From positions 1 to 64,000 of the forward strand of contig JAILLN010000027.1 in NCBI GenBank assembly GCA_024693135.1: a stretch of DNA of 64,000 nt. Reading direction: 5' to 3'. The stretch is from Lachnospiraceae bacterium. Lineage in GTDB: Bacteria > Bacillota > Clostridia > Lachnospirales > Lachnospiraceae. Under the pieces are notes generated by a model. The model saw only the letters and a program-made list of their open reading frames with translations. It did not search any database and had not been told where the DNA came from. Shown piece after piece: positions 3,531 to 32,348 of this stretch (within the stretch, counting starts at the first letter, position 1; each line of letters opens with the position of its first letter). The position numbers and the translations under genes are program-made.

Positions 3531-3583
3531 ACGTATGTTTATCTCTTTCCTGCACCGGCCGGATGCGAAACCCGTAACCGGCC
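3531..3583 (-). repeat. dispersed 5'-UTR element, copy A (leuS)
   Basis: Copy of a repeated element also found at 9091-9166, 10566-10643 and 32309-32348. Read with leuS it contains GCCGGTTACGGG, then CGCATCCGGCCGGTGC, then GAGATAAACATACG, and leads directly into the leuS Shine-Dalgarno sequence. GGCCG and CGGCC flank a short loop and could form a hairpin. It lies between the leuS promoter and its start codon, so it should be in the 5' untranslated RNA. Confidence 0.75.
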
Positions 3584-3630
3584 AGAACACGGGCGACAAC
3601 CGCATTCTGCTCCTTAAAAAGGATATCCCT

Positions 3631-3659
3631 ATGGTAAGACCTGCCCTCTTTCTTGTCAA
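3631..3659 (-). promoter_or_regulatory. sigma-A-type promoter of leuS
   Basis: On the minus strand TTGACA (3654-3659) and TACCAT (3631-3636) are separated by 17 bases. The -35 box is a perfect match and the promoter points at leuS, about 120 bases upstream of its start, just beyond the end of the neighbouring membrane-protein gene. Confidence 0.7.
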
Positions 3660-3665
3660 ATCCCT

Positions 3666-5327
3666 TCATTCGATCCTTTCATACAGCTCCTCTGCATTCG
3701 AATCCAGAAACAGCTCATAATGGGAAAAGACATATTCCTTCACATCCTCGTCGTCAAAGGACTCCATGTCCTCGGAAATGATCCACTTCGGCCTCTTTAT
3801 CTTAAGATACTCCATCACTTCCTCCTTGATCCGGGGATCCAGATGGAGGAAGTAGGGAAGATTGACCGGATAGGGGTTCGTAGGCAGCACCCCCAGCATT
3901 TCATAAAAGATCATGCCGGATTCCAGGTCATATACCTCATCCCGCTCATCCTCGGGAATGAAGGACCAGACCTCCATGGTTCCCTCATAGTAGGAGGAAT
4001 TGGGATATCTGCATAAGCAGTAATTCTCATTGATCTTGTCCATCACGGGTGTCCAGTAGAATAACAGCACAGCCATGACCCCCGCCTCGGTCCAGACCAG
4101 TCTTTTCACCGACGCCTTCCCTCCGGCCACGTCTTCCATCATGGAGAAGAACTCGATCAGGAACAGGACGAATAAGGGCAGCTCCGTAATGAAATAGTAG
4201 GTATAGGGCGTCCCCAGATGGAGGGCAAAGAAGGTAAAAAGGGAGCCGAAGACCAGGATGTCTTTCCGGTGTTTTTCCTTTAATGAGGCGGGCTTCAGGA
4301 ACAGGGAAAACAGGAATACCACATAGCAGATGAGCAGGTTTTTCTCCCAATCCAGGGAGAATGCCTCATAATAATCCGTAGACCGCTTGAAGGCAAAGGC
4401 AAAGGTACAATAGATGAACCGCCCGAAGGCATGGTTCATGGCAAAATAGGCGCAGACCGGCACGGCCACAAAAGCCGCACCCAGCAGGAAGAGCCCCAGG
4501 ATCGGGAATAAGAGCTTTGCCCTCTTTCTCCGGATAAGCTCCACCGCCACCGTGATGGCCGCAGCTCCCATGGGTGCCGCTACCGTGATCTTGGATAGGA
4601 CGATCACCGCAAAGGAGACGCCAAACAGAAAAGCAGCCGTGCCGTAATTTTGATAAGGATCCAGTTCTGTGGCTGCCGGTGCATCTGCGGCTTCCGGTGT
4701 ATCCGTAGTTGCCGGTGCATCCGTAGTGGCCGGTGCATCTGCGGCTGCCGGGACATCTGCAGTGGCCGGGGCATCTGCAGTGGCCGGGGCATCTGTGGGT
4801 GCTGGTTCCGATTCTTTGGCGGGTGCCCTCTCCGGCTCCTCCGGCAGGGCCCCGATGTATTTCAGCGCCAGGTAGATGCAGCCCAGATTGAAGGGCATCA
4901 TCAGCTCCTCGCAGGTATTGCCTCCCCAGAGCAGGAAGAAATAAACGAAATAAAAGCAGCCAAGGACCGCGGCGCTTTTTTTCGGACCCAGCCGGAGCCT
5001 GGCCGTCTTCCACAGGATCAGGGCCGAGGAGCCTGCGGCAATGCATTCAATCAGGACGATGCCTCCCCTTCCCGTAAGCAGAAACTGCCCAATGGCTTCC
5101 ATCATGAAAAAGACCGGGCCCTTCAGGTCAAAATAATCCCGGTAGGGCACATAGCCCCTGGTAATGGCCCTTCCCATGAGGGAATACCAGGAGCTGTCGT
5201 AGCCATAGGCATAACGGAAAAGCGGGCTGGTCCAGCTCGCCGCCAGTAAGACAAATATGCAGCCGCTTAGAACCACGGCTGCATATTCGAATATTTTTTT
5301 TGTTCTGGTACTGTCCTTAGTCTTCAT
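3666..5327 (-). CDS. GT-C-like polytopic membrane protein with hexapeptide repeat
   Basis: Membrane protein of 553 residues with about ten hydrophobic segments, the first right after a short basic N-terminus. A first loop containing GYDSSWYSLMGRAI and PYRDYFDLKGP (about residues 45-80) resembles the acidic catalytic loop of GT-C fold glycosyltransferases of the PMT/ArnT type, which use polyprenyl-phosphate sugars. Residues about 178-219 form an Ala/Thr/Asp/Pro-rich loop built from seven copies of an 18-bp repeat. A soluble C-terminal domain with PYFLHLDPRIKEEV follows the last membrane segment. I chose the ATG at 5327, which overlaps the stop region of the EF-G paralogue by 11 bases and suggests translational coupling; 31 upstream codons are open but lie inside that gene. 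The sugar and acceptor are unknown, and the glycosyltransferase call rests mainly on topology and the first loop. Confidence 0.7.
   Translation of the reverse strand: MKTKDSTRTKKIFEYAAVVLSGCIFVLLAASWTSPLFRYAYGYDSSWYSLMGRAITRGYVPYRDYFDLKGPVFFMMEAIGQFLLTGRGGIVLIECIAAGSSALILWKTARLRLGPKKSAAVLGCFYFVYFFLLWGGNTCEELMMPFNLGCIYLALKYIGALPEEPERAPAKESEPAPTDAPATADAPATADVPAAADAPATTDAPATTDTPEAADAPAATELDPYQNYGTAAFLFGVSFAVIVLSKITVAAPMGAAAITVAVELIRRKRAKLLFPILGLFLLGAAFVAVPVCAYFAMNHAFGRFIYCTFAFAFKRSTDYYEAFSLDWEKNLLICYVVFLFSLFLKPASLKEKHRKDILVFGSLFTFFALHLGTPYTYYFITELPLFVLFLIEFFSMMEDVAGGKASVKRLVWTEAGVMAVLLFYWTPVMDKINENYCLCRYPNSSYYEGTMEVWSFIPEDERDEVYDLESGMIFYEMLGVLPTNPYPVNLPYFLHLDPRIKEEVMEYLKIKRPKWIISEDMESFDDEDVKEYVFSHYELFLDSNAEELYERIE
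4672..4797. repeat. 18-bp tandem repeat inside the membrane-protein gene
   Basis: Seven imperfect in-frame copies of an 18-base unit (for example GTGGCCGGGGCATCTGCA on the plus strand). On the coding strand they give a hexapeptide of the DAPATA/DAPATT type. Because 18 is a multiple of three, copy-number change would alter loop length without breaking the frame. Confidence 0.9.
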
Positions 5328-7413
5328 CGCTGAGATCTTCAAGCTTGTCTTTCCTGGCCTCGATCTCCTTCTGCTGTACATCGCCCGGGGCCTGCTCATA
5401 ACGGGTGAACTCATACTCATAATCCCCGGTACCGCCCGTCATGGACCGGAGGTCTGTATTGTAGCCGTAAAGGCTTGCCTCAGGGATCTCCGCCTCCACG
5501 GTCTGCTTGCCGTTTCCGATGGGATTCATGCCCATGACCCTGGCCCGGCGCTTATTCAGGTCTCCCATGACATCGCCGGTATACTGGTCCGGCACCGTGA
5601 CCCTCAAGGTCATGATGGGCTCAAGGAGTACCGGCGTCGCCTTCATGAAGCCATCCTTGAAGGCCATGCGGGTGGCCATCTTGAAGGACTGCTCGGAGGA
5701 ATCCACCGGATGGTAGGATCCGTCGTAAAGGGTAGCCTTCACGCCCACCACGGGATATGCCGCCAAAGGACCCGTTACCACAGAATCGGCCAGTCCCTTT
5801 TCCACCGCCGGGAAGAAGTTCTTCGGCACGGCGCCGCCCACCACCTTCTCCTCAAATTCGAAGGCCTTATCCATATTTCCAAGGGGCGAGAACTGCATCT
5901 TTACATGGCCGTACTGCCCATGGCCGCCGGTCTGCTTCTTGTATTTTCCTTCCACATCGCTGGTGCCGATGATGGTCTCCCTGTAGGCTACCTTCGGCTT
6001 GGACAGGGTGATCTCCACTTTATAGTCGCTGATCAGCTTGGAACGGACGATCTCCAGATGCTGCTCTCCCATTCCGATAAGGAGGGTCTGCCGGTTCTGG
6101 GCATCGTTCACATTCTTCAAGGTCAGGTCTTCTGCCGTCATCTTGGCCAGGGCCTGGGAGATCTTGTCGATATCGCCCTTATTCACGGGACGGTACCGCA
6201 TGGCCGTATAAGGAGTCGGCAGCTTCAGGGCCGGATAGTGGATGGTGGTCGCCTTTGTGGAAAGGGTATCTCCGGTCCGGGTGACATCCAGCTTGCTCAA
6301 TGCACCGATATCCCCCGCGTGCAGCTCCGGAATCTCAGTGGCCTTTGCTCCGCAGAGGGTATAGAGCTTGGAGATCTTAACCTCCGCATCCCTCTCATCA
6401 TTATAGAGCACATCGCCGGACTTCAGCACGCCGGATGCCACTTTGATCAGGGAATACTTGCCGATGTAAGGGTCGATGATGGTCTTGAACACATAGGCGC
6501 TCTTGGGCTTGCTGAAATCGTAATCTGCCTCGAAGACCTCGCTGGTCTTGGTATTGATGCCGGCGAACTTCATATTTTCCGGCGAAGGCAGGTACTTTAC
6601 GATGTCGTCCATCAGTGTATATACTCCACGGCCAAGGAGGCTCGATCCCATGGAGATCGGGACGATGGTGCCGTCACAGACGGAAGTATGCAATGCCGCC
6701 CGGATCTCTGAATCCGAGAAGGTATCTCCTCCGAAATACCGGTCCATGAATTCATCCGAGGTCTCGGCCACGGCTTCCATCAAGGAATCCCTGTAGATGC
6801 TCAGGTTTTCGGTAGAATAATCCGGGATCGGACACTCCACCGCCTCATTCTTATCATTCCATTTGAAGGCTTTTTCGGCCACCACGTTCACGTATCCCAC
6901 AAACTTCTCATTTTCCCGGATGGGGAAATGGAAGGGGGCGATCTTCTTCCCGTAAAGCTCCGTCAGGCTTTCCAGCACATTCTTGAAGGAAGCGTTGTCA
7001 ATGTCCATATTGGATACATAGATGGCACGGGGCACATTATACTTCTCGCACAGATCCCATACCCTCTTCGTACCGGGCTCCACCCCTGCCTTGCCATTGA
7101 TCACGATGATGGCGGAAGCGGCCGCGCTCAATGCCTCCTCCACCTCGCCCACAAAATCAAAATATCCAGGGGTATCCAGGATGTTGATCTTGCAGCCCTC
7201 CCACTCGATGGGGATCACGGAGGTGCTGATGGAGAATTTCCTCTTCTGCTCCTCCTTATCATAATCACTGATGGTGTTGCCGTCATCGGTCTTTCCCATC
7301 CGGCTCGTCAGTCCGGCAATGTTGGCCATTGCTTCTGCAAGGCTGGTTTTCCCGGCTCCGCCGTGCCCGACCAGCACCACGTTCCGGATCTTATCTGTCG
7401 TATAAACCTTCAT
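5317..7413 (-). CDS. elongation factor G-like GTPase (EF-G paralogue)
   Basis: Translation-factor GTPase of 698 residues with the full EF-G layout: G domain, domain II, then domains III-V. The P-loop is GHGGAGKT (16-23), G3 is DTPGYFDF (80-86) and G4 is SNMD (134-137) instead of the usual NKMD. The P-loop also departs from the canonical AHIDAGKT. These changes, and the absence of rpsL, rpsG or tuf next door, fit the clostridial EF-G-like (FusA2-type) paralogue rather than the housekeeping EF-G. Domain IV is present (HGQYGHVKMQFSP, then the tip near GGAVPKNFFPAVEKG), so ribosome binding in the A site is plausible. The role of such paralogues is unsettled. The start has GGAGGGCAC just upstream, and a promoter is at 7475-7503. 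The membrane-protein gene overlaps its 3' end. Confidence 0.88.
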   Translation of the reverse strand: MKVYTTDKIRNVVLVGHGGAGKTSLAEAMANIAGLTSRMGKTDDGNTISDYDKEEQKRKFSISTSVIPIEWEGCKINILDTPGYFDFVGEVEEALSAAASAIIVINGKAGVEPGTKRVWDLCEKYNVPRAIYVSNMDIDNASFKNVLESLTELYGKKIAPFHFPIRENEKFVGYVNVVAEKAFKWNDKNEAVECPIPDYSTENLSIYRDSLMEAVAETSDEFMDRYFGGDTFSDSEIRAALHTSVCDGTIVPISMGSSLLGRGVYTLMDDIVKYLPSPENMKFAGINTKTSEVFEADYDFSKPKSAYVFKTIIDPYIGKYSLIKVASGVLKSGDVLYNDERDAEVKISKLYTLCGAKATEIPELHAGDIGALSKLDVTRTGDTLSTKATTIHYPALKLPTPYTAMRYRPVNKGDIDKISQALAKMTAEDLTLKNVNDAQNRQTLLIGMGEQHLEIVRSKLISDYKVEITLSKPKVAYRETIIGTSDVEGKYKKQTGGHGQYGHVKMQFSPLGNMDKAFEFEEKVVGGAVPKNFFPAVEKGLADSVVTGPLAAYPVVGVKATLYDGSYHPVDSSEQSFKMATRMAFKDGFMKATPVLLEPIMTLRVTVPDQYTGDVMGDLNKRRARVMGMNPIGNGKQTVEAEIPEASLYGYNTDLRSMTGGTGDYEYEFTRYEQAPGDVQQKEIEARKDKLEDLSDED

Positions 7414-7474
7414 GTGCCCTCCATAATTAATATATTTGCCCGGGATTCCCCCTTACGGAAACCCAAACACATAT

Positions 7475-7503
7475 ATATTACTAAAAAAATCGATTGATTA
7501 CAA
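7475..7503 (-). promoter_or_regulatory. promoter of the EF-G-like gene
   Basis: Minus-strand TTGTAA (7498-7503) and TAATAT (7475-7480) with a 17-base, AT-rich spacer. It lies about 60 bases upstream of the start codon, in the gap after the adenylation-enzyme gene. Confidence 0.55.
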
Positions 7504-7535
7504 TCTTTTCGATACAAATTCACCAAAAATCCTTT

Positions 7536-9077
7536 TCAGAGCATTGCAGAAAGTGCGTTCCGGTCGATCTTCCCGTTTTTGTTCAGCGGGAATTCCTCCA
7601 GCCGCACCGTTTTGCCCGGGAGCATGAAGGAGGGAAGCTTTTGGTGCAGCGCCTCAGACACCCCTTCTTTTTCAGCCTCCCCTGCATAGAAGAGCACAAT
7701 CTTCTTCCGCTTCGCATCATAGAGGCAGCAGGCCCTCTGCACTCCTTCCACGGACTGGGCCGAGGCCTCGATGTCCCCCAGCTCGATCCTCTGCCCCATA
7801 TGCTTGATCTGGAAATCCTTCCGGGAAGTAAAGACCAGGTTCCCTGCACTGTCGTATTTTCCCAGATCCCCGGTGCGGTAGATCCGCTCATAATGCCGGT
7901 GGTTCAGCGGATTCTGCACGAAGACTTCCCCGGTCTTTTCCGGATCCTTATAATATCCCAGGGCAAGGCAGCTGCCGGATACGCAGATCTCCCCCTCCTT
8001 TCCCTCTTCCTCCACCAGGCCGTCTTTGTCATCCAGCAGAAACACCCTTTCATTGGGGAAGGGGATCCCGGCGGGGATCATCTCGTCATTTTCAAAATCC
8101 CGATCCAGCACATAATAGGTACAGTTGCAGGTGATCTCCGTAGGGCCGTAAAGATTCACGTAAACGGCATCCGGCAGGGATTTTTTCCATTTGTTGAGCT
8201 GCTTTACGGGCATCATCTCTCCGCTGAACATGACCTGGCGGATCCTCTCCGGCTTCCGGTATTCCAGGCCGTTCATGATGGAGACGAAGCACATGGCGGA
8301 AACGGCCCAGATCAGGACCGTCACCTCATGGTCGGCCAGATAATCCATAAGCACCGATGGATTAGAGAAATATGGCCTGGGGATCAGGAGCACCTCGGCC
8401 CCGGTAAGGAGGGCGCTGTAGATGTCCTTCACGGATACGTCAAAATCAAAGGGAGCCTGGTTTGCCAGGATGTCCCCTTCCGTGATCTGAAAGATGCGGG
8501 TGAATTCCCAGATGAAATCCAATACCGACCTGTGGCCCACCGCTACGCCCTTCGGGATCCCGGTGCTGCCACTGGTAAAATTGACATAGAGGGGATCGGT
8601 ATCGATATGCCTTCTTCCAGCCTTGGAGAGAAGCTCCTCTGAGGCCGGCGTATGGGAGGCAAGCTCCACAAGCTCTTCTATCCGCTGAAGCCTGACTTCC
8701 CTTCTGCTTCCTTCTGCCAGCTTCCTGGCGGCCTCTTCGTTTTCTTCGTCGGTAATGACCAGCGGTGCCTCCAGTACCTCAAGGATCGCTCCCGCCCTTT
8801 CCGGCGTCTGCCTCACGTCGATGAAGCTGTAGCAGGCTCCTGCATAGACAGCCCCAAGCATCATCACCACGGCATCCACGCTTTTTTCCATATAGAAGGC
8901 AACCGCATCCCCCGGCCCTAACGGACGGCAGCAGCGTCCTTCGGCAAAAGCCGTTCCGATGCTCCTGGCCTTCCTTAAAAGTTCCCCGTAGGTAATGCTT
9001 TTCCCCGGATCGGTAAAGGCCCTGTGATCCGGGATCCGCGCCGCGGTCTCCTCCAGCATTTCAAGCACATTGATCAT
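7536..9077 (-). CDS. amino acid adenylation-type AMP-dependent ligase
   Basis: ANL-superfamily enzyme of 513 residues that should activate a carboxylate as acyl-AMP and pass it to a thiol. Core motifs are in order: FTSGSTGIPKG (167-177), FDFDVSVKDIY (210-220), YGPTE (310-314), YRTGDL (400-405), an RIELGDIE hinge and the catalytic lysine in NGKIDR (501-506). Asp213, within FDVS, is at the position that holds the substrate alpha-amino group in NRPS and DltA-type domains, so an amino acid is more likely than a fatty acid. No condensation or carrier domain is attached. It follows the PLP decarboxylase by 97 bases, a gap containing copy B of the dispersed element. The pairing recalls the exosortase-associated ligase and decarboxylase (TIGR03098/TIGR03099), but no exosortase or carrier protein is nearby. 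Substrate and product are unknown. Confidence 0.85.
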   Translation of the reverse strand: MINVLEMLEETAARIPDHRAFTDPGKSITYGELLRKARSIGTAFAEGRCCRPLGPGDAVAFYMEKSVDAVVMMLGAVYAGACYSFIDVRQTPERAGAILEVLEAPLVITDEENEEAARKLAEGSRREVRLQRIEELVELASHTPASEELLSKAGRRHIDTDPLYVNFTSGSTGIPKGVAVGHRSVLDFIWEFTRIFQITEGDILANQAPFDFDVSVKDIYSALLTGAEVLLIPRPYFSNPSVLMDYLADHEVTVLIWAVSAMCFVSIMNGLEYRKPERIRQVMFSGEMMPVKQLNKWKKSLPDAVYVNLYGPTEITCNCTYYVLDRDFENDEMIPAGIPFPNERVFLLDDKDGLVEEEGKEGEICVSGSCLALGYYKDPEKTGEVFVQNPLNHRHYERIYRTGDLGKYDSAGNLVFTSRKDFQIKHMGQRIELGDIEASAQSVEGVQRACCLYDAKRKKIVLFYAGEAEKEGVSEALHQKLPSFMLPGKTVRLEEFPLNKNGKIDRNALSAML

Positions 9078-9090
9078 ATCCTTCTCCTCG

Positions 9091-9166
9091 ATAAACGCAT
9101 GTTAAATCCGGCTTGCACCGGCCGGATGCGAATAACACAGCCGACGAAATACGGCCGCTTACGGTA
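9091..9166 (-). repeat. dispersed 5'-UTR element, copy B (adenylation enzyme)
   Basis: Copy read with the adenylation-enzyme gene: TACCGTAAGCGGCCGTAT, then TTCGCATCCGGCCGGTGC, then TTTAACATGCGTTTATCG, followed at once by GAGGAG and the start codon. It fills nearly all of the space between the decarboxylase stop and the next start. GTCGGC and GCCGGT can pair using G-U pairs, where copy C uses GCCGGT and ACCGGT. Confidence 0.75.
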
Positions 9167-9174
9167 TTTCATTC

Positions 9175-10353
9175 CTATGAATTGATCTCCCAGGTATGTC
9201 CTGCCTTCCGCACCAGGGCGGCCTTCCCCTCCACCTCTAAGATCACGGAGGGCAGGTCCCTGCTTAAAAAGAGCCCCAGCCCCTCGGTCACAGAATAGGC
9301 GCCGATATTGCAAAACGCCAGCACATCCCCCACGGAGAGCGTCCCCGTCCAATAGTCCCTGACCAGCACGTCGTTTGTGGTGCACAAGGAGCCGCAAAGG
9401 CACCAGGATTCCTCCTTGCCCTTCATCCTCATGGAAAGCCTCCGGATCACCGGCACCTTCATTCCCATGATCTGGCCCAGGTAATTCACATGGTTGATCC
9501 CGCCGTCTAAGATGCACCAGTTTTTGCCGAAGGAATGCTTCACGTCGGATACCCTAGTCAGATAATAGCCGCAGCCGCTGGCAAGGAACCGGCCCATCTC
9601 CACGGTAAGGCTGCTCCATCCGGCGGCCTCGGCAAGGTCCGGCGAAAGCTCCTTTAGCGGGGAAAGGGTATCGGAAAAATCATCTCCCTCGAAATAAGGA
9701 TGCCCAAGCCCCGGGCCGTATTCCAGCCAGCTTAGGTTCAGGCCGAATTTCTCCCTGAGGAAGGATACGGTCTCCTTCAGCATGGCAAGCTCTTCCCTCT
9801 GGTGCTTCAGCTTCAGCCTCTGGGTGCCCGCGAAATAGTGGATCCCCTCGATCTCAAGGAGGTCTTCTTCCCGGTTTTCCGAAAGGATGCGCTCTATGTC
9901 TTCCTTCGACATGCCAAACTGGCTTTGGGAAGAAAGCCGCAGCAGGACGCGGATCCTCTGACCCCTTTCCTCTGCCTCCTGCCGGATGAGCTCAGCCTGC
10001 CTGGCCGACTCTGCCGTAAGGACCGCCGCCCCATAGCGGACAGCCTCGGCGATGTCCTCCCTTTCCTTATGCACGCCGGAATAAATGATCTTTTCCCCGG
10101 GCACCTTGTATTTCTCCGAGATGGAAAGCTCCCCGGGGCTGCAGACCTCAACATAATCCACCTCATCCATCAATGCCGGGATCAGGAAGGGGTTGGCCTT
10201 GATGGAATAACAAAGCCGGATGCCTTCCCCTCCCGGAGTCCCGTTTAGGATCCCTTTGATCTGCCTGGCGCGGTTCTTCGCCTCGATGGCATCAAATACA
10301 AAAGCCGGAGTCCCATACTGCTCCGACAGCGCCAAAAGCCTTTCGTCCGTCAT
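9175..10353 (-). CDS. PLP-dependent decarboxylase, DapDC/ODC-like fold III
   Basis: Predicted pyridoxal-phosphate decarboxylase of 392 residues, alanine-racemase-like fold III. The Schiff-base lysine is K52 in CYSIKANP. HYFAGTQ corresponds to the HCHIGSQ strand of diaminopimelate decarboxylases, and EMGRFL to the EPGR phosphate loop. The C-terminal domain has Cys324 and Asp328 (GSLCTTND) and Tyr353 (GAYSV), the usual residues donated across the dimer. EPGR changed to EMGR suggests an unusual substrate rather than ordinary LysA. I chose the ATG at 10353 because AAAGGAG lies five bases before it; an upstream extension of 22 codons overlaps the promoter. It is the first gene of an operon with the adenylation enzyme, from the promoter at 10391-10419. 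Confidence 0.85.
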   Translation of the reverse strand: MTDERLLALSEQYGTPAFVFDAIEAKNRARQIKGILNGTPGGEGIRLCYSIKANPFLIPALMDEVDYVEVCSPGELSISEKYKVPGEKIIYSGVHKEREDIAEAVRYGAAVLTAESARQAELIRQEAEERGQRIRVLLRLSSQSQFGMSKEDIERILSENREEDLLEIEGIHYFAGTQRLKLKHQREELAMLKETVSFLREKFGLNLSWLEYGPGLGHPYFEGDDFSDTLSPLKELSPDLAEAAGWSSLTVEMGRFLASGCGYYLTRVSDVKHSFGKNWCILDGGINHVNYLGQIMGMKVPVIRRLSMRMKGKEESWCLCGSLCTTNDVLVRDYWTGTLSVGDVLAFCNIGAYSVTEGLGLFLSRDLPSVILEVEGKAALVRKAGHTWEINS

Positions 10354-10390
10354 TTTTTCTCCTTTCGGCATCATCCTGCCATGATTAAAA

Positions 10391-10419
10391 ATTATCTTAT
10401 GTTTCGATTTATGTGTCAA
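10391..10419 (-). promoter_or_regulatory. promoter of the decarboxylase-adenylation operon
   Basis: Minus-strand TTGACA (10414-10419), a 17-base spacer and GATAAT (10391-10396): a near-consensus sigma-A promoter 38 bases before the chosen start codon. Confidence 0.8.
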
Positions 10420-10450: not shown

Positions 10451-10565
10451 GGAAAAAAGGCTGTCTTCCGCTAAAGCCCCGTGCCTGGACGGATGCACTT
10501 TTTAAGCATGCCGGGATGAAGGCCAAAGGACAGCGGCATGGCGGCCAGATGAAAAATAAGGAGCC

Positions 10566-10643
10566 GGATACCTTTAGCGGCCGTTTTTTGCCGGTTACGG
10601 GTTCCGCATCCGACCGGTGTAAGTCAGAGATAAACATATATTT
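10566..10643 (+). repeat. dispersed 5'-UTR element, copy C (PPK2 gene)
   Basis: The only plus-strand copy, and it precedes the only plus-strand gene in this half of the window. It reads GGATACCTTTAGCGGCCG, then GCCGGTTACGGGTTCCGC, ATCCGACCGGTGTAAGTC, AGAGATAAACATAT, then AAAAGGAGGG and the start codon. GCCGGT and ACCGGT can form a stem around a 17-base loop. Confidence 0.75.
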
Positions 10644-10661
10644 ACAAAAGGAGGGAAACGT

Positions 10662-12128
10662 ATGCTGAAGGATTGGGTGAAACAGGAAAAGCCGGATGAT
10701 CCGGAACTTACCGAGCGGCTGAAGGAGGCCCGGCTGGCACTGGCCGGAAAGCAGATGGCCATCAAGGAAAAGAAGCTTCCGGTGCTGGTCATCTTTGACG
10801 GCTGGGGCGCCGCCGGCAAAGGAAGCGTGCTGGGCAAGGTGATCCGCAGCCTGGATCCCCGTTTCTTTAAGACGGAGACCCTCTCCCGCCCTTCAGAAGA
10901 CGAGTTAAGAAGGCCCTTCTTATACCGGTACTTTGCAAGGATCCCGGAAGCCGGCAAGTTTTCCTTCTTTGACGGCAGCTGGATGGACGAGACCACGAAG
11001 GGATACCTGACCGGGAGCACCTCCCCCGAAGAATACCGCCGGGAGCTTACCAGCATCAAGCGCTTCGAGCGCCAGCTTTCCGACAACGGATATCTGGTGG
11101 TGAAATTCTTCTTCCATATCAGCAAAAAGGAACAGAAGCAGAGGCTGAAGGAATTGGGGAAGGATAAGAATACGGGCTGGCGCGTGGAGAAATGGGACCT
11201 ATGGCAGAATAAGCACTATGAACTCTGCATGGATGTCTATGAGGACTATCTGGATGCCACCAACCAATTTGTGGCTCCCTGGTATTTCATCGATTCCAAA
11301 AACAAGAAATGGGCTGAGCTCCAGGTGACGGAGATCCTGGTAAAGAGCATCGACATCGCCCTGGAAAACACGGGACGCGCCGTGCCTCTGCTGCAGAATA
11401 CCTTCCCCCTCATCGCCATGCCTTCCCTCCAGGAGATCCCCCTGGACAAGACGATCGCGGACGAGGAATACGAGCAGGAGCTGGACCGCCTGCAGAAGAA
11501 GCTCTCCGGCCTCCACAATGAGCTCTATCACAAGAAGGTTCCCGTGGTCATCGCCTATGAGGGCTGGGATGCCGCAGGCAAGGGTGGCAATATCAAGCGG
11601 GTCACCGCGGCGCTGGATCCCCGGGGCTTTGAGGTCCACCCCATTGCAAGCCCGGAGCCCCATGAAAAGAACCGCCACTATCTCTGGCGCTTCTGGACCA
11701 GGCTTCCGAAGGACGGCCATATCGCCATCTTTGACCGGACCTGGTACGGCCGGGTCATGGTGGAGCGGCTGGAGGGCTTCTGCAGCGAAAACGACTGGCA
11801 GCGGGCTTATAATGAGATCAATGAATTCGAACGGGAGCTTTTCGACTGGGGCGCCGTGATCCTGAAATTCTGGGTGCAGATCGACAAGGACACGCAGCTC
11901 CAGCGCTTCACCGACCGGCAGAATACCCCGGAAAAGCAGTGGAAGATCACCGACGAGGACTGGAGGAACCGGGAAAAATGGGATCTCTATGAGGCGGCCG
12001 TCAATGAGATGATCCAGAAGACCAGCACGGAATTTGCTCCCTGGCATATCCTGGAATCCAATGACAAGCACTACGCCCGCATCAAGGCCTTAAAGACCGT
12101 GATCCGGCAGATCGAAAAGCGTCTTTGA
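10662..12128 (+). CDS. polyphosphate:AMP phosphotransferase, tandem PPK2 domains
   Basis: Protein of 488 residues with two PPK2 domains. The C-terminal domain has Walker A EGWDAAGKGG, a lid segment and Walker B IFDRTWYGRVMVERLEGF. The N-terminal domain has FDGWGAAGKGS but only FDGSWM at the Walker B position, so it is diverged. This two-domain layout matches class II PPK2 enzymes, which phosphorylate AMP to ADP with polyphosphate; in those the C-terminal domain is the catalytic one. The start has AAAAGGAGGG six bases upstream. It is monocistronic, with its own leader containing the dispersed element and a strong terminator at 12148-12189. No polyphosphate kinase of the PPK1 type or exopolyphosphatase is nearby. 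Confidence 0.9.
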   Translation: MLKDWVKQEKPDDPELTERLKEARLALAGKQMAIKEKKLPVLVIFDGWGAAGKGSVLGKVIRSLDPRFFKTETLSRPSEDELRRPFLYRYFARIPEAGKFSFFDGSWMDETTKGYLTGSTSPEEYRRELTSIKRFERQLSDNGYLVVKFFFHISKKEQKQRLKELGKDKNTGWRVEKWDLWQNKHYELCMDVYEDYLDATNQFVAPWYFIDSKNKKWAELQVTEILVKSIDIALENTGRAVPLLQNTFPLIAMPSLQEIPLDKTIADEEYEQELDRLQKKLSGLHNELYHKKVPVVIAYEGWDAAGKGGNIKRVTAALDPRGFEVHPIASPEPHEKNRHYLWRFWTRLPKDGHIAIFDRTWYGRVMVERLEGFCSENDWQRAYNEINEFERELFDWGAVILKFWVQIDKDTQLQRFTDRQNTPEKQWKITDEDWRNREKWDLYEAAVNEMIQKTSTEFAPWHILESNDKHYARIKALKTVIRQIEKRL

Positions 12129-25495: not shown

Positions 25496-25507
25496 TATTA
25501 TCTCCCG

Positions 25508-26086
25508 TCACAAGGACAGATTGCCGATCAGGGCAAGCACGCTGAGGTCTTTTTCTTTTTTCTGGGGATAGCCGGAGGCAAGCTTTAGAAGCCTTGCCTT
25601 AAAGGCAGAATAATCCTTGAAGATCTTGACTCCCACCCCATCCAGGCCGTTTTTTTCATTCATCTGGCGGATATGCTTCTCCACCAGGGAAGCATCCATT
25701 CCTTCTGCCCCGGCGAAGCCGATCAGGCTCCCGTCCGCGCAGGCAAACACGCTGATGCTGTAGCCCTTCTCCGTGGTGGTGATGACGGAATCATAAAATA
25801 CGGGAACCTCCCCCCGGATCTGCTCGCATTCCTCATAAACCTCCGCACTGCCCGGCTTATGCAGGCAGAACATCACGAAGGATACGGCCGCCATGGCTCC
25901 CGGGATGCAGATCACGATGGCCGTGATGCCGAACATCTTCGAATAAACCGGAAAACGGAGCTTTCCCGTAAGGAGGACTGCGAAGGCGAAGAAGAAAAGA
26001 AGCAGGGCCTTCAACAGCGTATAATAGCGCATTCCCTTCAGATATCCGTAGGTCCCCTTCCGGGGCTTTTTCAGGAAGCCCTTCAT
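25508..26086 (-). CDS. uncharacterised two-helix membrane protein
   Basis: Protein of 192 residues I do not recognise. A basic N-terminus (KGFLKKPRKG) precedes two hydrophobic segments at about 23-40 and 50-70, then a soluble domain of 120 residues containing FYDSVITTTEKGYSISVFACADGSLIGF-type strands and a positively charged end. The ATG at 26086 overlaps the pepD stop by ATGA, which decides the start over an in-frame upstream alternative. Topology by the positive-inside rule puts the soluble domain in the cytoplasm. Its position suggests coupling to pepD but no function. Confidence 0.75.
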   Translation of the reverse strand: MKGFLKKPRKGTYGYLKGMRYYTLLKALLLFFFAFAVLLTGKLRFPVYSKMFGITAIVICIPGAMAAVSFVMFCLHKPGSAEVYEECEQIRGEVPVFYDSVITTTEKGYSISVFACADGSLIGFAGAEGMDASLVEKHIRQMNEKNGLDGVGVKIFKDYSAFKARLLKLASGYPQKKEKDLSVLALIGNLSL

Positions 26087-27537
26087 TTCAGGGCTTTCAG
26101 GAATTCCAGGAGCAGCTCCCACATCCTGCCTGCGGAAGGCACGGAAAGATTTTCATGGGGCGTATGGGCTCCGTTGATCTGCGGCCCGAAGGATACGATA
26201 TCCACCGGCTTCATGGCCTCATAGATGATGCCGCACTCCAGTCCTGCATGGATGCCCTTTACCACCGGCTCCTTCCCGAAAAGCTTCTGATAGGTCTCCA
26301 CCAGCTTCGGCATCATCACGGAATCCCCGTTGTATTCCCAGGCCGGATAATCCCCTCTTTCCTTATAGGAACCCCCGAGGCTTTCCGCCAGGAGGCGCAG
26401 CTTCTCGGAAAGGGCATGCTTCTCGCTTGAGATGGAGCTGCGGAGGGCCGCCTCGATGGTGAATTCCTCCTCGCTCAGCCGCATGATGCCGAAATTCAGG
26501 GAGGTCTGCACCAGGCTTTCCTGTCCCTTTTCCATGCACATCTTCTGCACTCCGTTGGGCACCATATTGAGCATGAAGACCATTTTTTCCTGGCGCTTCT
26601 GCTTCACCACCTCTTCCTCGGCTTCTCCCCGGTTTTCGCAGTAGATCATGAGATTGTTTTCGTTGGCCCGGTATTCGTTGCGTACCTTCTTTTCGAAATC
26701 CCGGACCAGCTCTTCCAACACGCGGATGTCCTGCTCCCGGATATGCACATGGAGGCTGGCTTCCCTCGGGATCGCATTGTCCATGAGTCCTCCCTGGAGA
26801 CTGGCGATCCGGTATTCCAGTTTCTTGTCCATCTCGACCAAAAGCCTTCCCATGAGAAGGATGGCATTGGCCCGGTATTGGTTGATCGTCTCTCCGGAAT
26901 GCCCTCCCAGAAGGCCGCTGATCACGATCTTATACTTCACCCCTTTATGGAGGCTCCATTTCACCGGAAGGGTCAGGCTTCCCCTCATCCCTCCCGCACA
27001 GCTGTTGAAAAATATGCCCTCGTCCTCGGAGTCCAGATTGATGACCCGCCTTGCCTTCAGCACGGAATAATCAAAGGCTTTCGCCCCCTCCATCCCCGTC
27101 TCCTCGTCGGTAGTAAAGAGGCACTCAAGGGGAGGATGCTCGATCTCCGGCGAATCCAGGATGGCCAGGGCATAGGCAATGGCAATGCCGTCATCCGCCC
27201 CCAGGGTCGTGCCCCTGGCAAAAACGGTATCGTCCATATAGGCTAGGGGCAGGGGATCCTTCGTAAAATCATGGCGGGTCTGGGAATCCTTCTCGCAGAC
27301 CATGTCCATATGCCCCTGGATCATCACCGGATCCGAGGCTTCATAGCCCTTCGAGGCTTCCTTCCGGATCATCACGTTGCCGGCTTCGTCCTGGATATAA
27401 TCAAGCTCCCTTTCTTTTGCAAAGCCTGCCAGATAATCCGATATGGCCTTTATATTGCCGGATCCTCTGGGGATCGCGCTGATCTCTTCAAAGAATCGAA
27501 AAACCTTTTTCGGCTCGAGCCCCTCCAATGCTCCCAT
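26083..27537 (-). CDS. pepD: aminoacyl-histidine dipeptidase (PepD-like)
   Basis: M20-family metallopeptidase of 484 residues that cleaves dipeptides such as Xaa-His. Metal ligands are visible in IQGHMDMVCEK, GADDGIAIAYAL, DEETGMEGAKAF and DSEDEGIFF, with a final histidine in IHAGLECGI. The full-length catalytic and lid (dimerisation) domains are present. The ATG at 27537 is chosen because AAGGAGC precedes it and the homologous GLEPKKVFRFFEEISAIPRGSGN segment begins there; 15 upstream codons are also open. It is the first gene of the pepD-membrane protein-pseudouridine synthase-recU operon. Confidence 0.93.
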   Translation of the reverse strand: MGALEGLEPKKVFRFFEEISAIPRGSGNIKAISDYLAGFAKERELDYIQDEAGNVMIRKEASKGYEASDPVMIQGHMDMVCEKDSQTRHDFTKDPLPLAYMDDTVFARGTTLGADDGIAIAYALAILDSPEIEHPPLECLFTTDEETGMEGAKAFDYSVLKARRVINLDSEDEGIFFNSCAGGMRGSLTLPVKWSLHKGVKYKIVISGLLGGHSGETINQYRANAILLMGRLLVEMDKKLEYRIASLQGGLMDNAIPREASLHVHIREQDIRVLEELVRDFEKKVRNEYRANENNLMIYCENRGEAEEEVVKQKRQEKMVFMLNMVPNGVQKMCMEKGQESLVQTSLNFGIMRLSEEEFTIEAALRSSISSEKHALSEKLRLLAESLGGSYKERGDYPAWEYNGDSVMMPKLVETYQKLFGKEPVVKGIHAGLECGIIYEAMKPVDIVSFGPQINGAHTPHENLSVPSAGRMWELLLEFLKALK

Positions 27538-27590
27538 GACATCTGCTCCTTCCTTGTTAAGCTTTCCTTGCTTCTCAATCATCCGTCCCT

Positions 27591-27627
27591 TTAAGGAAAC
27601 ACAGGGGAGAGCGTCGCCCTCCCCTGT
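27591..27627 (-). terminator. terminator after the coiled-coil gene
   Basis: On the minus strand ACAGGGGAGGGC pairs with GCTCTCCCCTGT around GAC. The single non-Watson-Crick position is a G-U in minus-sense RNA but A-C in plus-sense, supporting minus-strand use. The following T run is short (GTTTCCTT). Confidence 0.7.
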
Positions 27628-27651
27628 ACGTAATCTGAAAGATCTAACCGG

Positions 27652-28362
27652 TCAAAGAATATCTACATTATCATCTGTGCCGCCCATGGCTCCGGTCTGC
27701 TGCAGCTGCTGTCCCATGCCGGGATCCGGCGGCAGCTCCTGCATCGGCATCTCCCCCTCGGGAAGCATCCCGGGCTCCACCTGCACCGTGGCCGTCTCCG
27801 GCATGCCCATGTCCGTGGCCACCTGTCTGGAAAGCTGGGCTCTGTTTGCGGAAACGCGGTTCAGCGCCTCATTGAGGGAATTCAGCAGCTCCATATAGCG
27901 GGATTCGGCATTGGTGATGGTCTTGCTGATGATATCCTCCAGGCTCTGCAGCTCATCGTCCGTATACTGGACGGCGCTCATCTGGTAATTATTGGCATCC
28001 CTGGTGGCGCTTGCCAGAAGCTCCTGGGCATTGCCTTTAGCCTGGGATACGATCTCATTTGCCTGGGCGTAGGCCTGCTGCATGATCTGATTCTCGCTCA
28101 CCATCTGATTCTGGTAAGCCTGCGCCTGCTCGATGATCCGGTCTCCGTCCTTCCTCGCCTTGTCTAAGATCATGTCCTTATTCACAATGATCTGCTGGCA
28201 TTTTTTGATCTCCTCCGGAATATGGTCCCTCAGCTCTCCCAAAAGCTCCATCATGTCGTCCTTATTTACGATGATGTTTTCCTTGTTGCTGAAGGCCGCG
28301 TACTTGCAGTTTTCGATCAGGTCATAGATGTCATCGATCGTCTGTTCAATTTTGTTTGCCAT
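27652..28362 (-). CDS. uncharacterised coiled-coil protein
   Basis: Soluble protein of 236 residues. About residues 55-180 are heptad-like and rich in Ala, Gln, Glu and Lys, similar in look to the DivIVA or ATP-synthase b-type coiled coils. A Pro/Met/Gln-rich tail (PGMLPEGEMPMQELPPDPGM) ends in DNVDIL. There is no membrane segment or catalytic motif. It follows coaD by 45 bases, with a TATAAT at 28391-28396 that may give it an extra promoter, and is closed by the terminator at 27591-27627. A scaffolding role is possible, but I do not know the function. Confidence 0.75.
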   Translation of the reverse strand: MANKIEQTIDDIYDLIENCKYAAFSNKENIIVNKDDMMELLGELRDHIPEEIKKCQQIIVNKDMILDKARKDGDRIIEQAQAYQNQMVSENQIMQQAYAQANEIVSQAKGNAQELLASATRDANNYQMSAVQYTDDELQSLEDIISKTITNAESRYMELLNSLNEALNRVSANRAQLSRQVATDMGMPETATVQVEPGMLPEGEMPMQELPPDPGMGQQLQQTGAMGGTDDNVDIL

Positions 28363-28407
28363 GGCAATCCCTGCCCATCCTTTCTGGATTATTATATCAT
28401 AAAGGCT

Positions 28408-28899
28408 TTATTCAGGCTTGATCGGACGCAGCTTGGCATAGATCCTGTCGGCAATGAGATCCGGCACGAAGAGGCTGATGTCTCCTCCAAAGGCCGCCAC
28501 CTCCCTTACGGTGGTGGAGGACAGATATGCATACTCCAGGCTCGTGGTCAGGAAGACGGTATCCGCCTTGGGCGAGAGCTTGCGGTTGGTCTGGGCCATC
28601 TGCAGCTCATATTCAAAGTCCGTGATCGCTCTCAATCCGCGGATCACAACCTCATATCCGTTTTCCGTGACATAATCCGCCAGGAGCCCGGAGAAGGAAT
28701 CGATCCGGACATTCGGCAGATCACGGCATACGTCCTTTAACATATTAACACGTTCGTCTACAGAAAACAACGGACTTTTTGCTTTGTTGTTCAGGACGCT
28801 GACGGTAAGGCTGTCAAAGATGCGGGATGCCCTGTGGATGATGTCGATATGCCCATTGGTCACCGGGTCAAAGCTTCCCGGATATACTGCATTTGCCAT
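28408..28899 (-). CDS. coaD: phosphopantetheine adenylyltransferase
   Basis: Enzyme of 163 residues for the fourth step of coenzyme A synthesis, 4'-phosphopantetheine to dephospho-CoA. The nucleotidyltransferase motif [10 protein letters not shown] is at 8-17, followed by [16 protein letters not shown] and the SSTTVREVA form of the ISST motif. Length is typical. It sits 25 bases after rsmD, a common pairing in Firmicutes. Confidence 0.98.
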
Positions 28900-28924
28900 G
28901 TGTTCTCCTTCCTGCCTTTCCGGC

Positions 28925-29500
28925 TCAGTCCGAACCTGCCCCGCTTTTCTTTACGAAAAACAGATGCCGGTTGGAACGATAATCCTTGGTTTTTGTCAAT
29001 GCGAAGCCAAGCTCTCCGGCGAAGGAAAAATCGGTATCATTGGAGGCCTCCACGATAAGGAGGGTATCCTCTCCCATCAGGCCGCTCCGGGAAAGGAAGC
29101 CCATGGCCATCTGCTCCAGCCCCTTTCCGTAGGGCGGATCCAGGAAAAGGATGTCCGCAGGCCCTTGAAGGCTCCGCTCAAGCTTCTGCAGTCCGGTCAG
29201 GGCATCCATAGCCATGACCTCTCCCCTTTCGGAAAGATGGGTCTTTTCCAGGTTCTGCCGGATGACCTCTGCCGCCTTCTTATTATGCTCCAGAAAGAAG
29301 CACCTCTCTGCCCCCCTGGAAAGTGCCTCGATCCCGATGCCCCCGCAGCCGGCAAAGACATCCACGAATATGCTGCCCGGAACCTCTGTCTGGATGGTAT
29401 TGAAAAGAGTTTCCTTATAGCGGTCAAGGGTGGGCCTGGTCTCCATGCCCTTCAGGCTGATGAGGCTGATCCTCCGGGCGCTTCCTGCGATGACCCTCAT
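28925..29500 (-). CDS. rsmD: 16S rRNA (guanine(966)-N(2))-methyltransferase RsmD
   Basis: SAM-dependent methyltransferase of 191 residues. It opens with the RsmD signature RVIAGSARR and [14 protein letters not shown]; the SAM loop is [14 protein letters not shown] (47-60) and the catalytic motif is DPPYGKG (121-127). It modifies 16S rRNA G966. Its start overlaps parC by ATGA. Confidence 0.96.
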
Positions 29501-31758
29501 GACAGCCTCACCTTCGTCCCCTTGCTGTCCCGCCTGGTCAGCTTGATGCGGGTCAGAGGCATCTGCTTATCCTTATATTCTATGGTGCGCTCATCGGCAT
29601 AATTCATATAATATACCTCCTCCAGCTCGTCTCCCTCCTGGAGCTTCATGCCGCGTACCCCCACGGCGCCCTTCTTTTTTTCCGGCACCTCCTCTAAGGC
29701 GAAGCGGATGAAAAAGCCGCTCCTGCTCTGCATCAGGATCTGCCGGTCAGTCTCCTCATCGTAAAGCCGGATCCGGAAGAGCTCGTCTCCCTCCGACAGT
29801 CCGGTGGCTGACACGGTCCGCTTGGTGGTCACGTCAAATTCGGAGCCCGGCACAAATTTCATCATGGCTTTTCTTGTGATGAAGAGAAGCCGTGCTTTGA
29901 TGACCTGGCTCAAGTCTGCTACCAGGACGAAGGTTTCCTTCGCACTGTCAAAATTGCTCAGATTGTCAATAGGCACGCCCTTGTCCCTAAGCTTCCCAAA
30001 GGGGAGATCGCGGATCTTTACGATATGCAGCTGCCCGGTATTGGTGAAGATGCTGGCACGGCCGGTATTCTTTACCACAAAGCAGTGCCTGAAGCCTGCC
30101 TCGTCCCCTTCGATGGTTTCCCTGTTGCGCTCATAGGTACTGACGTCGATGGTCCTGGCATAGCCGAACCGGTCCATGACAAAGACCACGTCCATCTCCT
30201 CCATGGGCTTTTCTTCAAAGACCGCGGCGCCGATATTGGCAATCTCCGTCCTGCGCTCTTTCCCGTACTTTTTCCCGATCTCATCCAGGTCCTTGATGAT
30301 CTGCTTTGACATGGACCTGGGATTTTCCAGGATGTCCCTGTACCGGTTTATGCATTCCACGGTTTCTTCATGCTCCTTTAAGAGCTGGGTGATCTCCAGC
30401 CCGATCAGCCGCACCAGCCTCATGTCCAATATGGCGGAAGCCTGCTTCTCCGTAAACCGGAGCTGCCCTGCCTCCCGTTCAGACTGGGCCGACTTAAAGC
30501 GTATGCCCGCCGTGCTGCCGTGTACCAGGCAGTCCATGGCCTGTTCCCGCTTCGTGGAGCCCCGGAGGATCTCTACGATCAGGTCGATCACATCGCAGGC
30601 CTTAATGAGCCCCTCCTGGATCTCCTTCCTCCCCTCCTCCTTTGCCAGAAGATTGGTATATTTCCTGCGGTTGACGTCATAAAGGAAGGCCACATGGGCA
30701 GAGATGGCCTGCCTCAGGCCCAGGGTCTCCGGCCTTCCTGAAGAGACCGCCAGCATGTTCACGCCGAAGGTATCCTCCAGCCGGGTCTTGCTGTAGAGCA
30801 GATTCTTGATATTTTCCAGATCCGCATCCTTCCTGCATTCGATGACGATGCGGATGCCTTCCTTGGAGGACTGGTTGGAAATGTCCGTGATATCCGTGGT
30901 CTTCTTGCTCTCCGCCAGATCCGCCACGTCGGCCATGAATTTCGCGATGCCGGAGCCCACCATCGTATAAGGGATTTCCGTCACCACCAGGTTCATCCGG
31001 CCGCCCTTCCCCTTCTCCGTCTCCACCCTGCCCCGGATCTTGATCTTTCCGGTGCCGGTCTCATAGATCTGCCTCAGGTCATCCCCATTGGTCACGATCC
31101 CTCCCGTGGGGAAATCCGGACCCGAGACGATCCCCATCAGCTCCTCCAGGCTGATGTCGCGGTTTCGGACATAGGCCTTTTCGGCTTCTACGATCTCCTT
31201 CAGGTTATGGGGCGGAGTGGATGTGGTCATGCCCACGGCGATGCCCTCGGAGCCGTTTACCAGAAAGTTGCAGATCTTGGCGGGAAGCACCTCCGGCTCC
31301 TTCTCGGTATCATCGAAATTCGGGATGAAGTCCACCGTATCCTTGTCCAGATCCCTCAGGAAGGCATCCTCCGTAACGCTCTGGAGCCTGGCTTCGGTAT
31401 AACGCATGTGCGCCGCCGTATCTCCTTCGATGGAGCCGAAATTGCCATGGCCGTCGACCAGGGGGCATCCCTTCTTGAATTCCTGCGCCATGACCACCAG
31501 GGACTCATAGATGGAGCTGTCGCCATGGGGATGGTATTTACCCATGGTATCTCCTACGATACGGGCGCTTTTCCGGTAGGGCCTGTCGCTCCGTATACCC
31601 AGCTCGTCCATATCGTAAAGGGTCCTTCTCTGCACCGGCTTCAGTCCGTCCCGGATATCGGGGATCGCCCGGGAAATGATGACGCTCATGGCGTAATCAA
31701 TGTAGGACTTCTGCATGATGTCCGAATATTCTGAATTGATGATATTTTCTGTGATCAT
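29497..31758 (-). CDS. parC: type IIA topoisomerase subunit A, ParC-like
   Basis: Subunit of 753 residues. The breakage-reunion domain has ARIVGDTMGKYHPHGDSSIY (the quinolone-resistance region) and the catalytic tyrosine in AHMRYTEARL. The C-terminal domain lacks a recognisable GyrA box (QRRGGKG-type), which argues for decatenating topoisomerase IV rather than gyrase. Its partner is the parE-like gene in the same operon. The start is 9 bases after the cysteine-hydrolase stop. The ParC naming is a judgement; a second gyrase set is the alternative. Confidence 0.88.
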   Translation of the reverse strand: MITENIINSEYSDIMQKSYIDYAMSVIISRAIPDIRDGLKPVQRRTLYDMDELGIRSDRPYRKSARIVGDTMGKYHPHGDSSIYESLVVMAQEFKKGCPLVDGHGNFGSIEGDTAAHMRYTEARLQSVTEDAFLRDLDKDTVDFIPNFDDTEKEPEVLPAKICNFLVNGSEGIAVGMTTSTPPHNLKEIVEAEKAYVRNRDISLEELMGIVSGPDFPTGGIVTNGDDLRQIYETGTGKIKIRGRVETEKGKGGRMNLVVTEIPYTMVGSGIAKFMADVADLAESKKTTDITDISNQSSKEGIRIVIECRKDADLENIKNLLYSKTRLEDTFGVNMLAVSSGRPETLGLRQAISAHVAFLYDVNRRKYTNLLAKEEGRKEIQEGLIKACDVIDLIVEILRGSTKREQAMDCLVHGSTAGIRFKSAQSEREAGQLRFTEKQASAILDMRLVRLIGLEITQLLKEHEETVECINRYRDILENPRSMSKQIIKDLDEIGKKYGKERRTEIANIGAAVFEEKPMEEMDVVFVMDRFGYARTIDVSTYERNRETIEGDEAGFRHCFVVKNTGRASIFTNTGQLHIVKIRDLPFGKLRDKGVPIDNLSNFDSAKETFVLVADLSQVIKARLLFITRKAMMKFVPGSEFDVTTKRTVSATGLSEGDELFRIRLYDEETDRQILMQSRSGFFIRFALEEVPEKKKGAVGVRGMKLQEGDELEEVYYMNYADERTIEYKDKQMPLTRIKLTRRDSKGTKVRLS

Positions 31759-31767
31759 AGATATTCC

Positions 31768-32292
31768 TTACTCCGCGATGTTGATCTGGCAGGCCTTCAT
31801 GGTCTTCAGGGCGGCCTCATGCCCCTCCGGCGTAACCCCGGCACAGCAGGCCGGATCCACAAAGATCGGCACATCCGGCATGACGGCCTTCAAAAGCAGT
31901 GCATTGGAGACGACGCAGATGTCGGTGCAGAGCCCGCAAAGCTCCAGCTCCAGCTCCTCTTCCTTCCCCATCTCCGAAAGCTTCCTTGCCAGGTCCGTGG
32001 AGCCGAAGGTGGGCTTTTCGTAGATCAGCGCCTTGCCCAGGGCCTCCTTGATCTTCGGATTAAGCTGCCAGCCCTCCGTTCCCCGGATGCAGTGCTCCAC
32101 CGGCAGGTGTTTTCCTTCCTGGGTCTTAAGGTAATGGGGGCCGTGGGTATCCATGGTGGCGATCCGGTCTGCCTCCGGATAGGAACGGATCTTTTCGGCC
32201 ACCCTGTCCACGATGGCCTCGGCCTCCTTCGTGCCCAGGGCTCCGTTGATGAAATCATTCTGCATATCGATCACGATCAATTTTTTCCTCAT
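31768..32292 (-). CDS. isochorismatase/nicotinamidase-like cysteine hydrolase
   Basis: Hydrolase of 174 residues. The catalytic triad reads as Asp9 (VIDMQNDF), Lys93 (YEKPTFGSTD) and Cys126 (GLCTDICV). MDTHGPHYL includes the family's metal-binding histidine region. Nicotinamidase is the best guess given length and motifs, but other amidases share them. The ATG at 32292 has TGGAGGAG six bases upstream. It sits between parE and parC with copy D of the dispersed element in front of it, so it looks like an insertion in a topoisomerase operon. Confidence 0.85.
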   Translation of the reverse strand: MRKKLIVIDMQNDFINGALGTKEAEAIVDRVAEKIRSYPEADRIATMDTHGPHYLKTQEGKHLPVEHCIRGTEGWQLNPKIKEALGKALIYEKPTFGSTDLARKLSEMGKEEELELELCGLCTDICVVSNALLLKAVMPDVPIFVDPACCAGVTPEGHEAALKTMKACQINIAE

Positions 32293-32308
32293 TTTCTTCT
32301 CCTCCAGA

Positions 32309-32348
32309 AAACGCATGTTTATCTCTGACTCACACCGGCCGGATGCGG
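32309..32348 (-). repeat. dispersed 5'-UTR element, copy D (cysteine hydrolase)
   Basis: Copy read with the cysteine-hydrolase gene: CCGCATCCGGCCGGTGTG, AGTCAGAGATAAACATGC, then GTTTTCTGGAGGAG. The upstream half shared by copies A to C is missing. It lies in the 67-base gap after parE. Confidence 0.7.

Follow-up and report, generated by a model that had tools for sequence, protein, structure and literature searches.

The window considered here is the whole 64,000-nucleotide stretch of contig JAILLN010000027.1 from a Lachnospiraceae bacterium. It raises the question of why a short palindromic element stands directly in front of four unrelated genes (copies A to D, Table 1). The original prediction, made from the letters of the window, offered two answers: a mobile palindrome which carries a ribosome-binding region, or a shared RNA regulatory motif. 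As checks it named a covariance-model search of the genome and its relatives, a test for covariation, and the orientation and distance of the copies to start codons. The four copies are true members of a dispersed family, and the element is spread in some gut-type bacteria. The first answer is supported by eight loci with a filled and an empty state and by identical cores at different loci. The comparisons of sequences allow us to propose, with a probability of roughly 0.8, a mobile, non-autonomous element whose core measures 88-92 nucleotides (nt) and which would insert directly 3' of a (G)GAG-type tetranucleotide and bring its own Shine-Dalgarno sequence (SD).

Filled and empty sites

Empty sites were searched for with the flanks of copies from genomes G013 and G030 in their sister genomes and with the flanks of copies from G032. 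Eight loci with a filled/empty pair were found. At four of them the filled state is that of G013 or G030 (flank identity 84-96%), while at the other four G032 has the element and G064 lacks it (94-95%). The first four are the loci of a ClpC-like gene (empty in G009, 96% identity), of the L099 gene, which has no Pfam name (empty in G030, 89%), of a FecCD gene (empty in G009 and G013, 84%) and of a homocysteine methyltransferase gene (empty in G030, 89%; the left flank differs for about 20 nt). At all eight loci the insertion point lies directly 3' of GAG or GGAG, once TAG. Two examples, given as empty versus filled with a slash at the junctions, are AGAAGGGAG/ATAAGTG versus AGAAGGGAG/CCAGC...TATTAAGGAG/ATAAGTG, and TTAAAGTAG/GATAAATC versus TTAAGTAG/CCTGG...GATGAG/GAAAAATC.

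The target and the element are distinguishable at four of these loci. The left side keeps GGGAG (L240, L183 and L241) or GTAG (L157), and the right end is the element's AAGGAG at the first three and TGAG (GATGAG) at L157. Since the target stays in the left flank and the right end derives from the element, there is no true target duplication; for the latter reason the downstream gene is now preceded by the SD of the element. The other four loci are compatible with no duplication but less telling. Seven of the eight sites lie before a start codon, while L183 is a site without a gene start, empty in G064. Just 2-5 bases are shared at the junctions. The site of L084 yielded no usable empty state, and the rpsE-rpmD spacer of G007 contains a different hairpin, so that no clean empty site is available there.

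The copies were also compared within single genomes. G032 contains eight identical 92-nt cores at different loci; a ninth identical core, L159 in G064, occupies the same site as L239 of G032, judged by the flanks. Identical cores on different contigs are also present in G021 (two pairs) and G020 (one pair). The genome of the window itself (G000, a 3.19-Mb draft in 67 contigs, 88% complete) has a median nearest neighbour of 83%, and the spread there therefore looks older.

A separate observation concerns L244 of G032 in comparison with L294 and L297 of G064. In G064 an open reading frame (ORF) of at least 494 codons stands behind TTAGGGAG; its first kilobase or so is gone in G032, where the element joins TTAGGGAG (GGGAG, the SD of the ORF) to the bases after an internal TGGAG. 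This element-linked deletion fits either two insertions at GGAG sites, one of them within the gene, with later recombination, or a deletion next to the element.

A dispersed family with two hairpins

The pattern CGCATCCGNCCGGTG is found 19 times in G000 and its reversed form 0 times. Alignment of these 19 sites revealed a unit longer than the one originally seen, typically GGAG, then a hairpin, then the SD, a few bases and the start codon. The proposed covariance-model search was productive. A first model, built from 13 copies, gave at least 69 matches in G000 at E<0.01 when the best 150 of 1323 candidates were scored, four of them in the window, and most of the matches viewed with their flanks have an ATG within a few bases downstream. 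Several copies form tandem arrays that repeat every 90 nt or so and have the junction GAGGAG-CTG in common, the SD end of one copy being joined to the next. At E<=1e-4, 19 of 61 genomes (the own one included) were matched, all of one genus. The second model, R2 (28 pairs, from 26 copies of many genomes), matches 25 of the 48 genomes of the genus at E<=0.001: 61 times in G000, 47 in G021, 33 in G020, 21 in G032 and 1-12 times in each of the other 21. Across 392 genomes of the order, with the best 10 candidates scored per genome and copies thus missed, R2 matches beyond G000 were obtained just in three genomes of genus g26, which belongs to the same family.

The nearest genome by the rpsE-rpmD region, G007 (75.8%), has no R2 match and no such repeat in the 164 kb examined. 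Viral contigs gave zero matches to three exact patterns, the plasmid and phage collections no match to one blastn query each, and a single 24-base pattern had 0 exact matches in the genome_contigs collection (GTDB 220 species). The median core length is 90-92 nt in six genomes, and a core of 88-92 nt is too short for coding a protein.

Some other repeats were met beside the element. In L098, L087, L092, L247 and L250 additional hairpin-like DNA separates the left hairpin from the AGTCAG segment, with similar inserts recurring in L087/L098 and in L247/L250. The rpsE-rpmD spacer of G007 (L106), nearly absent from many relatives, is about 100 nt long and bears a different hairpin; it is single in the 164 kb. 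A second dispersed repeat of about 175-200 nt, found in the upstream flank of L084 (G013), has dozens of matches in G013, G030, G066 and G009, many of them 94-99% identical.

Two hairpins are kept in the element, a long left one, P1, and a short right one, P2, which adjoins the terminal GGAG. P1 has the form GGAGC-GATACCGT-apical hairpin-ACGGTATC-GC-A-UCC, and P2, beside the SD, reads for instance AUAAAC-nnnn-GUUUAU in G000 and AAUAAUC-CUG-GAUUAUU in G006. Judged from the alignments, the hairpins are maintained through compensatory changes. In 84 distinct rows from outside G000, both sides have changed in 22 of the 28 pairs, with 254 compensatory cells versus 78.7 for shuffled and 24-45 for slid partners; the 58 rows of G000 alone give 21 pairs and 76 cells versus 36.5 shuffled and 23-34 slid. 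For these counts every row of A4 and A5 was taken, identical ones a single time, so that orthologues and a truncated duplicate of copy C are among them, and both alignments were fitted to the model. In a MAFFT alignment of 26 copies that had not been fitted in this way, the hairpin on the left, GGAGC...GC-A-UCC with the upper stems, has 45 compensatory cells versus 17.6 shuffled and 10-23 slid. The expected covariation thus resides in the left and right hairpins instead of the pairing arms named originally: tested as GCCGGT/ACCGGT, these have 1 both-sides cell versus 1.8 shuffled in the 26 copies, which rules them out as a conserved helix.

No Rfam family reaches its gathering score on the element in the window. 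A looser scan (E up to 10) of copies A to C was empty as well, copy D having been scanned at the gathering threshold only. In the relatives the permissive scan gave chance-level overlaps only, SNORD78 on the strand opposite L097 (E 3.4) and TtnuCD20 on L086 (17.9 bits against a gathering score of 80, E 1.2).

The position of the copies relative to genes was counted in the 146 rows of A4 and A5, of which 143 remained after three duplicate or overlapping windows were dropped. Leaving out these three, L088 (the orthologue of L099) and identical rows gave 140 distinct copies. An ORF of at least 50 amino acids, or at least 30 if cut by the end of the locus, starts 0-22 nt after the SD on the same strand in 113 of the 140, 102 of them with ATG. 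By the same test 34 of the 68 non-coding GGAG sites in the window pass (one-sided binomial p 5e-14), as do 1331 of the 4124 GGAG sites, coding or not, in the loci retrieved. Under a stricter called-gene test (start 0-14 nt away), which relied on a crude gene-calling script, 25 of the 68 sites are SDs. The 27 copies without an ORF start within 22 nt comprise tandem-internal copies, slightly farther starts (L023, +33), short ORFs, degenerate copies and true non-SD positions. L183, L243, L246 and others are exceptions to the start-codon position, and L086 apparently lies in the 3' part of an ORF, judged by eye.

The left tetramer ends in AG in 120 of the 143 copies and is GGAG in 100 and GTAG in 2, while the right end is GGAG in 125, TGAG in 8, AGAG in 4 and uncalled in 6. 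The excess before start codons is real, but it could stem from selection. The target seems to be the tetranucleotide, the SD being the place where most survivors are found. Of 50 downstream proteins listed in G000, 30 were tested; 29 match Pfam, with a wide spread of families, none of them a transposase or integrase. Housekeeping genes behind the element include those for ribosomal protein L30, an ATP synthase alpha/beta-family subunit, LeuS, triosephosphate isomerase and peptide deformylase.

Possible mechanism and alternative explanations

The end hairpins, the lack of target duplication and the left tetranucleotide target with a similar right end recall single-strand transposition of the IS200/IS605 type and the palindrome-associated, IS605-related transposable elements (PATEs) described for Haloquadratum walsbyi (PMC3119063). 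The empty state would be ancestral, and by analogy the element may move via a circular or single-stranded intermediate as in IS200/IS605-type HUH systems. The 3' foot of P1, C-A-UCC, can pair with the GGAG on its left, that is, with the target, and the cleavage site GGAG/C might be specified by this pairing with the UCC foot, as in IS200/IS605-type transposition. The enzyme would act in trans, no candidate having been found. The bias to SDs might arise if these are the GGAG sites where insertion does little harm, because the element supplies an SD. In comparing the foot with the right end, CC accompanies GG in 64 rows, and CA accompanies TG in 7 rows of the G013/G030/G009 lineage, a co-change that is largely one evolutionary event. 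L086 of G031 also combines a CA foot with GATGAG, overlooked by the end-caller, and an apparent mismatch at L046 is an end-calling artefact.

Several observations weigh against this proposal. The Y1 transposase family PF01797 (Y1_Tnp) was not found in G000, G021 and G020, the three richest genomes; these are drafts (88%, 95% and 93% complete), and it is possible that a Y1 gene was missed. Y1 genes are not associated with carriage of the element (14 of 25 carriers versus 10 of 23 non-carriers by hand count, Fisher p 0.56), and 35 Y1 loci have no R2 match up to E 5. A longer, autonomous version with separated ends was not detected: 34 matches to a left-half pattern, in four of five genomes (none in G069), all proved to be full copies when the lists were compared by eye. 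The foot and the end disagree at L053 (CC with TGAG) and at the degenerate L069 (CA with GGAG), and the UCC foot lies 3' of its hairpin, while the guides of IS200/IS605 elements are placed 5' of its foot in the account of PMC6006769. At L099 the empty G030 site has TGAG like the right end of the element and the filled left side AGAG, which alone is undecisive; at L185 some 20 nt of the left flank do not agree. Excision could conceivably account for the empty states, and nearly all genomes are drafts in many contigs (G032: 3). Departures to G-U exceed those to A-C by just 154:117 (p 0.03), which hardly separates RNA from DNA folding, and the fold may therefore be kept at either level.

In separate views of RAYT-type (REP-associated tyrosine transposase; REP, repetitive extragenic palindromic) loci, 7 of 11 have other palindromic repeats nearby, of the GGGGACG/CGTCCCC type, one view having taken the wrong ORF. 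By eye, the genes L312, L313, L315, L316, L232, L235 and L236 are flanked by such GGGGACG.../...CGTCCCC repeats. Y1/RAYT as the mobiliser is unsupported on account of the missing Y1 in the three richest genomes, the missing association and the lack of R2 matches at Y1 loci.

The element was compared with several known systems as far as the cited passages describe them. Like PATEs (PMC3119063), it is too short for a transposase, has strain-specific insertions, has no target duplication at the four clearly distinguishable loci, and has palindromes near both ends without terminal inverted repeats, the ends C... and ...GGAG not being inverted repeats by inspection. Unlike them, it has an 88-92 nt core located at SDs, carries its own SD and stands in sense before genes. 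A related Y1 transposase or full-length IS605-type relative was not found, neither in G000, G021 and G020 nor as an R2 match at the 35 Y1 loci. The element would work like a PATE, yet it is not filed as a member because the expected Y1 partner was sought and did not appear. REP sequences with RAYT/TnpA-REP (PMC6006769, PMC3733652) similarly have a tetranucleotide at the foot of an imperfect hairpin and a high copy number. They are described as carrying GT[AG]G and measuring 21-65 nt (PMC6006769), while the present element has two hairpins and lies at start codons, its tetranucleotide being both the target and the 3' end of the element itself; neither GT[AG]G as the usual left tetramer nor a RAYT gene nearby was found, given the tetramer counts and the lack of Y1 in the three genomes.

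The TAACTGA direct repeats of Beggiatoaceae (PMC4679880) also occur in many copies, mostly forward and directly before start codons. They differ as heptamer tandem repeats mostly without SD, and hairpin or empty-site evidence is absent from the passages on them. Miniature inverted-repeat transposable elements (MITEs) and the pneumococcal BOX/RUP repeats (PMC3049150, PMC10969869) are likewise short, non-autonomous and dispersed with strong secondary structure. Terminal inverted repeats and target duplications, the marks of MITEs in these papers, are both lacking in the element. In the open-licence PMC literature searched by title and start of abstract, no paper on an SD-targeting mobile element appeared.

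The mobile element is to be weighed against other explanations. It might be an ordinary REP-type or PATE element moved by a host RAYT or IS200-type Y1 transposase, in agreement with the GGAG-type tetranucleotide at the hairpin foot, the palindromes near both ends without target duplication, and the Y1 genes in 24 of the 48 genomes of the genus, including G032 with 17 matches. This is rather doubtful, since G021 and G020 have identical cores on different contigs although neither they nor G000 has a Y1 match, carriage shows no association, and most RAYT-type loci viewed have palindromic repeats of another kind. A cis-regulatory RNA, a riboswitch-like or protein-binding leader of a regulon duplicated as useful control into many 5' untranslated regions, would explain the conserved, covarying structure in sense upstream of start codons and the SD just behind a hairpin. 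It is improbable given that the 30 downstream proteins tested have no common function, copies are lineage-specific and identical at different loci, relatives have the same genes without the element, some copies are away from genes, and no Rfam family matches at gathering score. The second answer of the original prediction, a shared regulatory motif as the cause of the distribution, is thus unsupported, with 29 of 30 downstream proteins in diverse Pfam families and a match at 0 of 80 other leuS loci.

Without any transposase, the element might have spread between leaders with an SD by homologous recombination or template switching, in line with the lack of a mobiliser, the tandem copies and the 2-5 shared junction bases. 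However, homologous recombination needs more shared bases than these, and the eight identical cores, found at different loci and sharply bounded on either side, make this explanation the least credible of all.

Within the mobile-element explanation, a more specific version is tentatively considered, in which the element is dedicated to translation initiation sites. Its anti-SD-like foot (C-A-UCC) would pair with the target GGAG, a non-Y1 enzyme would insert it 3' of the SD, and the built-in SD and hairpin would take over ribosome binding. Introns are mobile elements able to survive inside genes by restoring what they interrupt. The element appears to do something similar at the ribosome-binding site, where it parts the old SD from the start codon and supplies a new one. 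If true, the element would be translation's counterpart of a self-splicing intron, hidden from selection by restoring the interrupted signal. From its position before housekeeping genes, it could rewire the leaders of core genes, and the filled/empty pairs of related strains make its effect on translation directly measurable.

The four copies in the window

The features in the window are collected in Table 1. All four copies match the first covariance model, and reading of the stretches agrees with the original prediction that four related copies lie at these places, each just before a start codon in the direction of the gene, the plus-strand copy included. The downstream products, LeuS, an AMP-binding enzyme, PPK2 and a member of the isochorismatase family, are unrelated, as had been claimed. 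The strings said to be shared are not exact in all four: copy C reads CGCATCCGACCGGTG, and GAGATAAACATGCG is exact in copy D only, with one mismatch in copy A and three in copy C, copy B reading GGATTTAACATGCG. The claim that the element lies immediately before the SD has to be corrected, since the SD is inside the motif. The left flank of copy B, ATAGGAA, is a degenerate target, and the left hairpin is missing from copy D.

Table 1. Copies of the element and other features located in the window
Feature	Position	Strand	Match to first covariance model (E<0.01)	Remarks
Copy A, element core, 89 nt	3521..3609	-	3516-3618	3' end GAGGAG (3521-3526) at SD distance from leuS ATG at 3509
AAGGAG abutting copy A upstream	3610..3615	-		Probably the old target-side SD, from empty sites of other loci
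Copy B, element core, 88 nt	9084..9171	-	9079-9180	3' end GAGGAG before AMP-binding enzyme, ATG at 9077
AAGGAG abutting copy C upstream	10558..10563	+		Probably the old target-side SD
Copy C, element core, 90 nt	10564..10653	+	10555-10658	3' end AAAGGAG at SD distance from PPK2 ATG at 10662
Copy D, reduced to a 49-nt right half (CGCATCCGGCCGGTG to GGAGGAG)	32299..32347	-	32294-32386	SD of isochorismatase-family gene, start taken at 32292
Cobalamin riboswitch RF00174	62187-62395	+		117.6 bits

The leuS locus of copy A was compared with its relatives. No match to the element was found at any of the 80 other leuS loci, one of which has just 21 nt of upstream DNA. In three relatives whose LeuS is 87-89% identical, a single SD stands, by eye, immediately upstream of the start. 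Among named LeuS sequences, the best matches (87-89% identity) come from uncultured Lachnospiraceae, including one from deer rumen. The cobalamin riboswitch listed in Table 1 is the sole match in the window at the Rfam gathering level.

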